Below, piece after piece: positions 16,424 to 24,094 of a stretch of DNA of 64,000 bases. The stretch comes from an uncultured Pelagibacteraceae bacterium. Its GTDB lineage: Bacteria; Pseudomonadota; Alphaproteobacteria; Pelagibacterales; Pelagibacteraceae. A program made the translations under genes and the position numbers. Location of the stretch: contig CACNXC010000003.1 of NCBI GenBank assembly GCA_902624315.1, forward strand, positions 1 to 64,000, given 5' to 3'. How positions within the stretch are numbered: position 1 is the first letter of the stretch; every line of letters begins with the position of its first letter. The notes beneath the pieces are model-generated. The model was not told the DNA's origin, ran no database searches, and saw only the letters and a list, made by a program, of their open reading frames with translations.

Positions 16424-17377
16424 TTAAATTTTGATTTTGTTTAGAGCGTTGTTTTTAAAGATATTTGCTTCTCTTATATATCTTCTAACCATCTGTGTTG
16501 TTTTATGGCCAGTCATTGCCATAATGCTACGTTCATCGGCGCCAGACTCTGCAGCAGCAGTTGCAAAACCAGATCTCAAACTATGACCTGCAAAATTTTT
16601 ATTCTCAATGCCTGCTAAATTTAAATATTCTTTTATTAACAAAACCACTGATTGGTCGGTTAATCTTTTTTCAGTAAGAGATAAACCTTTGGAAAATCTT
16701 CTAAAAATAGGTCCAGATTTAATTTTAGAAATTTCTAGCCACTTTTTAAGATTGACTACAGGACAGTAGTTTTCGTTAGTAAAATAGGGTAGTCCTTTAA
16801 TCATTCCTTCACCGAATTGATCAGTTTTTGACCTTCTAATGGTGATTTTAAGACCTTCAGTTACAAATTCCAAGTCTTCATAATCAATAGAAATAAGCTC
16901 AGTTCGTCTAAAACCACCTCCAAAGCCCACTAAGATAATTGACTTATCTCTAAACTTTTTTACATCATCAATTTTTTGCTTATCTATTACATTAATTATT
17001 AATTTTAAATGATTGATTAATATGGGTTTTTTGCCTTTTTGAATACTACCTTTTACCCTTTTTATTCCCATTAAATTTTCAACAATAATTGGATGTTTTG
17101 TATCTAGATAATGTCCCTTAAGTTTATGCACCATGCTTATGGAAACTAATCTTCTTCTTAAAGTACTAATTTTTGACTTTTTAGAGAGATGAGTTAGGTA
17201 TAAGGAAACTATTTTTGGCTCTGATGGCAAAGAATTTAAACCATGCTTAAAACAAAAAGCTCCAAAATCCTTAAAGTCTGATTTATAGGCTCTTAAAGTA
17301 TTATTTGCCTTTGAACTTTTAAGGTTATTCAAAGTTGCTTCATGAAGCATTTTTAAATCTGTTGTCAGTTCATTCAT
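16424..17377 (-). CDS. Tyrosine recombinase/phage-type integrase
   Basis: 317 residues, full length and apparently intact. The N-terminal SAM-like core-binding domain has NTLRAYKSDFKDFGAF. The catalytic domain keeps all residues: Arg157 (GFRRTE), Lys184 (SKTDQ), His265 and Arg268 (GHSLRSGFA), His291 (TGHKT) and Tyr300 (RRYIR). The C-terminal motifs resemble chromosomal and plasmid integrases more than XerC/XerD. It is convergent with the glycosyltransferase (five-base gap). No other phage gene is nearby. A near-perfect inverted repeat (17381-17415) begins four bases upstream of its ATG and covers a plausible promoter (TTGATA, 17 bases, TATTGT), suggesting autoregulation or a recombination site. 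Confidence 0.93.
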   Translation of the reverse strand: MNELTTDLKMLHEATLNNLKSSKANNTLRAYKSDFKDFGAFCFKHGLNSLPSEPKIVSLYLTHLSKKSKISTLRRRLVSISMVHKLKGHYLDTKHPIIVENLMGIKRVKGSIQKGKKPILINHLKLIINVIDKQKIDDVKKFRDKSIILVGFGGGFRRTELISIDYEDLEFVTEGLKITIRRSKTDQFGEGMIKGLPYFTNENYCPVVNLKKWLEISKIKSGPIFRRFSKGLSLTEKRLTDQSVVLLIKEYLNLAGIENKNFAGHSLRSGFATAAAESGADERSIMAMTGHKTTQMVRRYIREANIFKNNALNKIKI

Positions 17378-17415: not shown

Positions 17416-17458
17416 ATATCAAGTGATTTTTAATGTCAATAGTTTAAATATAAAAATT

Positions 17459-17635
17459 ATGGGTTCAATTGATGGAGAAATTCCTGCTGTATGGTTTTTA
17501 ATTACCTCTGTGGGATTTATTATTTTAAGTTCAATTCAGTACAAAAATCATGGCAAAAGCATTGAAACTATTTTTTTATCTATCTTGGCAATCTTATTTT
17601 TAATCAGCTATTTTATCTTAGTTTTCAAAGCTTAA
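17459..17635 (+). CDS. Small two-helix membrane protein, unknown function
   Basis: 58 residues if the ATG at 17459 is used; a GTG at 17423 would add 12 residues that look less protein-like. Two hydrophobic segments (AVWFLITSVGFIILSSI and IFLSILAILFLISYFILVF) flank a short polar loop with KNHGKS. No ribosome-binding site is obvious. It is divergent from the integrase across the inverted repeat. I recognise no family, but the regular spacing of two membrane helices makes a real protein plausible. Confidence 0.5.
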   Translation: MGSIDGEIPAVWFLITSVGFIILSSIQYKNHGKSIETIFLSILAILFLISYFILVFKA

Positions 17636-17730
17636 TTTATCCCCAATATTCACAGGAATTTTTGTAAATTTTCAGAATCAATTAAAAGGTGATACAGCTT
17701 TAAAATCATAACTGTTAAAGTATATATGAA

Positions 17731-17903
17731 TTAAGGGGCAACCCTTAACTGGCCAATTGGGCAAAAGCCGAGAGGTACAAATCCAAGGGGCAGAAAGTTC
17801 TGCAAAGCATCGCTGAACATGCAGAACGGGAGGCATGGCGGTAGCGCATCAACGACGTGCCAAAACAACTGTTCTTTGCACCCTTAAAAGTGCAAGGAAA
17901 CAG
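17731..17903 (+). ncRNA. Candidate structured RNA upstream of ogt
   Basis: This stretch is visibly GC-richer than its surroundings. Hairpins: 17731-17748, a perfect 7-bp stem TTAAGGG/CCCTTAA with a GCAA tetraloop; 17797-17827, GTTCTGC paired with GCAGAAC; 17832-17861, GGCATG with CGTGCC enclosing GCG/CGC; 17869-17903, a 13-bp stem with one bulge (CTGTTC, TTTGCAC against GTGCAAG, GAACAG with the extra A). The last loop plus its closing base repeats CCCTTAA and could pair with the first stem's TTAAGGG. A TATATA at 17721-17726 could be a -10 box. It is not recognisably tmRNA, RNase P, SRP or a known riboswitch. No T-run follows, so it may be a leader of ogt. Confidence 0.5.
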
Positions 17904-17919
17904 GGGTTTCACAAGAAAA

Positions 17920-18195
17920 ATGCATCTTAAAGGCACTAAATTTCAATTAAAAGTCTGGAAATACCTCAAAACTATACCAAAAGGTAAAATAAGAACATAT
18001 AAACAAGTTGCTGCTGCCATAAACAGCCCTAAATCAGCCAGAGCTGTAGCTAATGCTTGTGCTAAAAACCCATATGCCCCAAAAATACCTTGTCATAGAG
18101 TGATTAGATCTGATGGAGCTCTTGGAGGTTACTCTGGTAGAGGTGGAATCAAGCAAAAACTCAAATTACTCAGATCTGAAAAAGTAGCTATTTAA
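17920..18195 (+). CDS. ogt: Methylated-DNA--cysteine alkyltransferase, minimal form
   Basis: 91 residues from the ATG at 17920. This is the Ogt/MGMT DNA-binding active-site domain alone: GTKFQLKVWKYLKTIPKGKI, the helix RAVANACAKNP with the arginine finger, the acceptor cysteine in PCHRV (Cys58) and GGYSGRGG. It transfers alkyl groups from O6-alkylguanine to itself. The N-terminal domain of full Ogt (about 60-80 residues) is missing. An in-frame ATG at 17857 exists but its extra 21 codons lie in the RNA hairpin region and look untranslated. AGGGG at 17902-17906 is far for a ribosome-binding site. Confidence 0.85.
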   Translation: MHLKGTKFQLKVWKYLKTIPKGKIRTYKQVAAAINSPKSARAVANACAKNPYAPKIPCHRVIRSDGALGGYSGRGGIKQKLKLLRSEKVAI

Positions 18196-24016: not shown

Positions 24017-24032
24017 AATTCTCATAAAATCG

Positions 24033-24089
24033 GTAGGCATTTGAACTGTATTGTGCGCCTTGCATAAAGCAAAAGCACTAAAAAAGGAG
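24033..24089 (+). promoter_or_regulatory. SAM-V riboswitch aptamer covering the metY ribosome-binding site (second of tandem)
   Basis: AGGCATTTGAACTGTATTG then TGCGCCTTGC, a small TTGC/GCAA hairpin, and GCACTAAAAAAGGAG match the SAM-V consensus. P1 is GGC with GCC, and GTGC pairs with GCAC as the pseudoknot helix. AGGAG (24085-24089), five bases before the ATG, is inside the 3' end, so ligand binding should hide it and block translation. SAM-V was first described in Candidatus Pelagibacter. Confidence 0.85.
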
Positions 24090-24094
24090 TAAAA

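Follow-up and report, generated by a model that had tools for sequence, protein, structure and literature searches.

An IMES-2 RNA beside ogt in a Pelagibacteraceae genome, with a predicted loop-loop helix between hairpins P3 and P4

Is the GC-rich, strongly folding segment just before an ogt-like gene in an uncultured Pelagibacteraceae bacterium the leader of that gene, or an RNA that acts elsewhere? The segment lies in a 64,000-nt stretch of contig CACNXC010000003.1 (the window), and an earlier note, made from the letters alone, had described several hairpins at 17731-17903, suggested that two folds compete there, and proposed either a regulatory leader or a trans-acting RNA of no recognised class. 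The compositional part of that description is correct: G+C content is 0.51 for 17724-17863, as against 0.27-0.29 in the surrounding 8-kb blocks. The host group, SAR11, is described in PMC2704228 as the dominant aerobic heterotrophs in marine surface waters.

A covariance-model search against Rfam (cmscan), which the earlier note had proposed as a check, matches the plus strand at 17724-17863 to RF02035 (IMES-2) with 144.1 bits (E 2e-37; gathering score 54.7). The alignment is full length, covering model positions 1-141 of 141, and since the match extends over the whole model, the class of the window RNA has already been named: it is a further copy of the known family IMES-2, and the assertion that no known class applied was wrong. 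The window copy shares with the family this full-length match, the four hairpins of the model and a SAR11 host; the Rfam model ends at 17863 and leaves unscored the 3′ hairpin, the upstream block and the P3-P4 kissing helix that we describe below. The sole other Rfam match near the locus at E ≤ 5 is a chance-level one to gyrA RNA (13.5 bits against 45), and neither the Rfam models nor ARAGORN find tmRNA, RNase P RNA or SRP RNA at the locus. For strain HTCC1062, Table 1 of PMC2704228 lists these three RNAs at other places. In the literature that we searched, which did not include the 2009 descriptions, no title concerned IMES-2 RNA itself (the term occurs in a giant squid genome paper), the term IMES-1 did not occur, and the combination of IMES, noncoding RNA and Breaker likewise returned nothing. 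Papers of 2009 reportedly described these RNAs, IMES-2 is said there to be expressed in marine communities, and we know of no role for it. IMES-1 (RF02034) got its name from similar marine discovery studies; considered as a replacement for IMES-2, its model matched 0 of 26 genomes, a count that cannot mean absence because the control genomes were silent too.

The plus strand folds at -66.8 kcal/mol, compared with -47.6 ± 3.95 for shuffles (z -4.86), and the minus strand reaches a z of -2.33. The fold comprises P1 (17731-17748, plus strand; 7-bp arms 17731-17737/17742-17748 with a GCAA tetraloop), the compound hairpin P2 with a GAGA tetraloop (17749-17793), and the hairpins P3 (17797-17827) and P4 (17832-17861), both with large loops and, like P2, on the plus strand. 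The hairpins listed in the earlier note are real, and its descriptions hold for the first hairpin, for the 6-bp stem around a 3-bp one (17832-17861) and for the 13-pair hairpin with a bulge (17869-17881/17890-17903); its '7-bp stem' is presumably P3, which has 8 pairs in the fold, and P2 had gone unlisted. In the window, two model pairs of P2 are A-G and A-A, and one Rfam pair of P4, G-A here, is never standard in the 60 sequences aligned below.

For comparison, genome contigs were scanned with a P4 pattern, which listed at least 170 loci; 11 failed the locus filter and 159 were kept. Left out were L026, L045, L088 and L115, whose IMES-2 copies are cut by the locus edge, and L037, L082, L089, L122 and L141, which have no 5′ hairpin (L122 and L141 were inspected in sequence); L169 and L170 were handled separately, and a strict P4-end pattern dropped L039, L054, L058 and L102 (4/159). 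Alignment A1, made with MAFFT, holds 60 distinct sequences, namely 40 of the 42 loci of a wider set (leaving out L252, which is truncated, and L260, which is close to L256) and 20 chosen loci of genus g1. Across A1, 100% of cells are paired in P1, 94.5% and 93.0% in outer and inner P2, 87.5% and 83.3% in outer and inner P3, and 87.4% in P4. For the Rfam stems together with the added helix, 92.2% of cells are paired as compared with 77.0% in shuffles, a level reached by 0/500 of them. Two-sided changes occur in 34 of 45 pairs (39 of the Rfam structure plus 6 added), and two-sided cells number 448 versus 126 in shuffles (0/500), in counts that ignore shared ancestry and exchanged halves. Compensatory change in the stems, another check put forward in the earlier note, is thus present, and the comparison supports the IMES-2 stems.

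The added helix would join the loops of P3 and P4. In the window, UCGCUG in the P3 loop (17810-17815, plus strand) faces UAGCGC in the P4 loop (17842-17847, plus strand), with five of six pairs forming, one as G-U, and one mismatch. Loci from the P4-pattern scan of genome contigs were kept out of the assessment of this helix, as the pattern held part of the P4 loop constant. In A1, the kissing helix alone has 93.1% of its cells paired compared with 84.7% in shuffles (0/500); its two-sided cells number 35 (shuffles 8.5) and its covariation score is 0.314 (shuffles 0.141; 0/500 each); two of the five measures, the counts of pairs and types, are not above shuffles (255 and 276 of 500). One inner pair is C-G in 46 sequences, U-A in 13 and A-U in 1, and the other G-C in 41, A-U in 17 and U-A in 2, both with no mismatch in 60; the pairs at the two ends do not form in 8 and 17 of the 60. 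Shifting the helix by 1 to 3 columns leaves no more than 57.5% of cells paired. These data support, at the level of sequence comparison, a loop-loop (kissing) helix between P3 and P4, which is an addition relative to the Rfam model; the original 2009 drawing lies outside this comparison.

The helix takes many forms, including GCGCUA/UAGCGC, GUACUA/UAGUAC, GUGCUA/UAGCAC, GUUCUA/UAGAAC, GAACUA/UAGUUC and GCACUA/UAGUGC, and differing forms are present inside the genera g280, g281, g282 and g284. Some of these come with exchanged 3′ halves, so the number of events is below the number of cells. A clean example among close relatives is the pair L263/L264 of g280, whose 3′ halves are 0.89 alike and in which one inner pair is C-G at one locus but U-A at the other. 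Since a number of the variant loops lack self-complementarity, pairing of identical loops in a dimer is not a conserved feature; P3-P4 pairing between two molecules would still be compatible with the data. A 3-bp stem inside P4 of the computed fold would compete with the kissing helix.

Both flanks of the core carry further elements. A block, AATCAATTAAAAGGTGATA in the window (17676-17694, plus strand), lies around position -35 relative to the RNA and, in the form WCAAYYAWWWAGTGATA, is kept across gene settings in a profile of 165 upstream regions, at least 3 rows of which are wrongly anchored. As regards a promoter regulon shared with other genes, matches to the block with two mismatches allowed are roughly as frequent in five genomes as matches to its reversed sequence, used as control (for instance G000, 61 versus 45; G012, 69 versus 67). 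A putative -10 region and transcription start lies at 17719-17728 (plus strand), where a loose hexamer is found in 155/163 loci, a count without a shuffle control; a sigma-70 consensus scan of the window found no site there and returned one weak promoter-like site at 17649-17678, where shuffles give 0.6. Further upstream, the tandem element TTATCCCCA followed by ATATTCACA (17637-17654, plus strand) resembles the DnaA-box consensus, TTATNCACA. The looser form TTWTNCMCA is present in 99/163 upstream regions versus 3.5 in mononucleotide shuffles and in 21/41 of the wider set, the loci not being independent, and strict TTATNCACA in 35/163 versus 1.45. These DnaA-box-like elements hinted at a replication origin, a candidate that we rejected: the cumulative GC skew of the contig has a maximum near 16 kb, which is terminus-like, and there is no turn at the locus in genome G520. 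The skew peak near 16 kb (resolved in 8-kb steps) adjoins a tyrosine recombinase gene (16424-17377, PF00589) and the IMES-2 gene.

On the 3′ side, the window has a terminator-like hairpin (-16.4 kcal/mol) with a short U tract, UUU (17869-17909, plus strand). A loosely defined T-rich stretch follows a fold of between -15.6 and -25.1 kcal/mol in 159/163 loci, again without a shuffle control and with 3 loci omitted because their tails are too short; the 4 exceptions include the window and L018, a close relative, both with TTT alone, and a consensus terminator scan finds none in the window copy. Given this short U tract and the 16 nt between the 3′ hairpin and the ogt start codon, read-through from IMES-2 into ogt is plausible in the window's clade.

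Taken together, we consider it probable that the region is a stand-alone IMES-2 gene, made up of the upstream block, a core of about 140 nt with four hairpins and the 3′ terminator-like hairpin, and that its product is a trans-acting structured RNA with a protein partner. Structure and independence of neighbours come from comparison, and we infer transcription, abundance and the protein partner. Transcription would start from the conserved upstream block and end at the 3′ hairpin. The P3-P4 kissing pair would hold the 3′ half of IMES-2 rigid, so that invariant unpaired bases (the AGAAA linker and the tetraloops) would be displayed to a protein partner. IMES-2 would then function as an RNP, or as an RNA that binds a protein, and not as a riboswitch. 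The trans-acting RNA proposed in the earlier note is supported as far as sequence can take the matter. Because a SelO-like neighbour is shared between gene settings and 3′ halves are exchanged (both described below), two supports of this explanation are slightly weaker than they would otherwise be.

A stand-alone gene with a terminator-like hairpin would also suit a base-pairing (antisense) regulatory sRNA, in which an unpaired conserved stretch pairs with mRNAs, and the AGAAA linker between P2 and P3, which is unpaired and invariant or nearly so, could be such a stretch. The unpaired conserved runs of IMES-2 are short (about 5 nt), however, and most of the conservation is held by stems and loop-loop pairs, which makes antisense regulation an unlikely reading, if the most serious of the rivals.

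The distribution of IMES-2 is patchy and, in the genomes searched, confined to one family. The Rfam model matches 134/197 Pelagibacteraceae genomes, in 12 of 14 genera, and 198/399 genomes of the window's genus; among genus genomes at least 90% complete, 29/58 match, i.e. half are without the gene. A class-level sample yields 3 matches in 385 genomes, all three belonging to the family, and 0 of 24 genomes match in family f2 of the same order. With R1, a wider covariance model that we built from 60 sequences, 60/157 genomes of the order match, in 4 of 10 genera, all of them members of family f1. In a less strict R1 search of 32 genomes, clear matches are confined to G843 and G796, which were included as positives; G796 has a weak second match, two other genomes reach E values of 0.06 and 0.09, and outside family f1 no IMES-2 relative appears in the 7 f2 genomes searched. 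Matching genomes have one match each above the cut-off in the f2, genus and family scans; extra matches at 12 to 19 bits were taken as chance, as 4/14 control genomes also respond at that threshold. Among the matches listed, most named genome records that contain the P4 pattern are Pelagibacteraceae/Pelagibacterales (SAR11), and the few unrelated ones do not have the remainder of the IMES-2 RNA. A phage origin was also rejected: the single viral contig with the pattern (L141) is an unrelated G+C-rich sequence with no 5′ hairpin. On this comparative evidence, IMES-2 is absent from some relatives.

Could IMES-2 stand in for 6S RNA as a 6S-like RNA that binds RNA polymerase? The two are alike in being stand-alone bacterial RNAs of similar length, and the Rfam 6S model (RF00013) finds no match in 11 genomes (10 of the family and 1 order-mate), at the window locus or in four divergent IMES-2 copies, when 6 of 14 controls respond, 4 of them over the cut-off (the responding controls include Caulobacter and five others). 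Against this, 6S RNA has the shape of one long hairpin with a central bubble, whereas IMES-2 consists of four separate hairpins, and three genomes without IMES-2 (G012, G322 and G718) are also without a 6S match. We therefore hold a 6S-like function to be distinctly improbable.

Turning back to the IMES-2 gene, its two halves may not always share the same history. At six loci of g280, g281, g282 and g284, the 5′ half has a similarity of 0.91-0.97 to the locus's own genus; for the 3′ half this figure falls to 0.44-0.59, and comparing the 3′ halves of these loci with one another across genera gives 0.62-0.78. The 5′ half of these mosaic loci is 0.87-0.92 alike to the same loci of other genera, and being conserved everywhere it marks the genus weakly; for L250 the closest 5′ halves come from other genera. 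Some mosaic loci also have their terminator hairpin in common. From these comparisons, the P3-P4 half can vary inside a genus while P1-P2 stays much alike, and exchange of the P3-P4 half between genera would be the simplest reading, with the alternative half perhaps a cassette swapped within a small RNA gene. In the mosaic 3′ halves P3 and P4 travel together, as a kissing pair would require. The alternative P3-P4 half, common to several genera, occurs at L236, L249, L250, L251, L253, L254 and L257 (RNA at about 1501-1640). A bolder version would see two modules in IMES-2, an unvarying 5′ half and a P3-P4 specificity half that is exchanged between genera as a cassette, in some cases with the terminator, and defines recognition types, be it for RNA dimers or for a partner molecule; transcription would be tied to replication via the DnaA-box-like sites. 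We regard this version as speculative and give it a slim chance.

In the window, as the earlier note had it, the RNA does stand just before ogt: an ogt-like gene with an MGMT DNA-binding domain (PF01035, 2.6e-33) lies directly downstream, outside the RNA, at 17920-18195 on the plus strand. The note's cis-regulatory ogt leader with two competing folds gains further support from the pattern-found loci, where, among the matches listed, a PCHRV motif (one substitution allowed) occurs at most 700 nt downstream in 146 of 159. The other 13 tell against it in part: 2 end too early, and 11 have at least 790 nt without the motif. At these 11 loci the next long ORF differs (convergent in 9, codirectional in 2), and the 3′ hairpin sequences are unlike that of the window. 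At L005 and L052 a small ORF lies between RNA and ogt. In the 42 wider-set loci (120 nt viewed downstream; L237 shows 19 nt), the start of ogt is visible in 3, namely those that belong to genus g1. Neighbours read at 12 of the 42 loci fall into four gene settings: an MnmA-like gene upstream of the RNA (8/12 loci); a staphylococcal-nuclease-like gene upstream with SRAP downstream (two g5 loci); what we take to be a SelO-like gene, recognised without a domain scan, upstream with RmuC downstream (one g285 locus); and recombinase with ogt (L268). Pfam supports the MnmA-like (PF03054), SRAP, SNase, RmuC, recombinase and MGMT-domain calls, with one example each. A SelO-like ORF also lies within 1.5 kb in the g5 loci, so that, with such a gene near both g5 and g285, the four settings are not wholly unrelated.

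The converse also occurs. Of 15 genomes of the genus without IMES-2, 14 have ogt. In three of these (G322, G937 and G899) the site is empty: 6 nt separate ogt from the small ORF found upstream in the window too, a gap that in the window spans 284 nt and holds the RNA. In the remaining 11 a different ORF precedes ogt. G808 and G520 carry both ogt and IMES-2, but on separate contigs or at a distance of about 178 kb. Either can be present where the other is missing, which does not support the leader reading, and IMES-2 is, on comparative grounds, independent of ogt and of any one neighbour. Riboswitches such as SAM-V and others of SAR11 are likewise structured RNAs in SAR11 intergenic regions, but riboswitches stay linked to one set of genes, whereas the setting of IMES-2 varies. 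The small upstream ORF of the window (17423-17635) has 70 aa as listed and 58 aa from ATG, with no Pfam match; at L005 and L052 it is a relative of this ORF that lies between RNA and ogt, rather than upstream of the RNA.

The strand switch postulated for such a leader fares no better. The repeat is present as described, with CCCTTAA at 17742-17748 and 17881-17887 and TTAAGGG at 17731-17737, and the second pairing is possible on paper. Forcing 17731-17737 onto 17881-17887, however, gives -56.5 versus -66.8 kcal/mol, i.e. 10.3 kcal/mol worse, with a pair probability of about 1e-8, and a second copy of the P1 arm's 7-mer lies in the tail at 8 of 154 loci, window included (those of the 163 loci with exact GGCAAC). 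The repeat looks like a coincidence of the window's subclade, the claim of competing folds does not hold up, and with four gene settings, no constant gene link and ogt kept where the RNA is missing, a leader of ogt is very improbable. A chance fold in A+T-rich DNA, to which we give practically no weight, is refuted by the Rfam match and the covariation of stems and kissing helix, and the z of the plus-strand fold also stands against it.

With a defined gene, a covarying loop-loop contact, relatives without the gene and a half that differs among close relatives, IMES-2 becomes testable in culture. Elsewhere in the window, at 24026-24092, there is a SAM-V riboswitch match of 86.9 bits.
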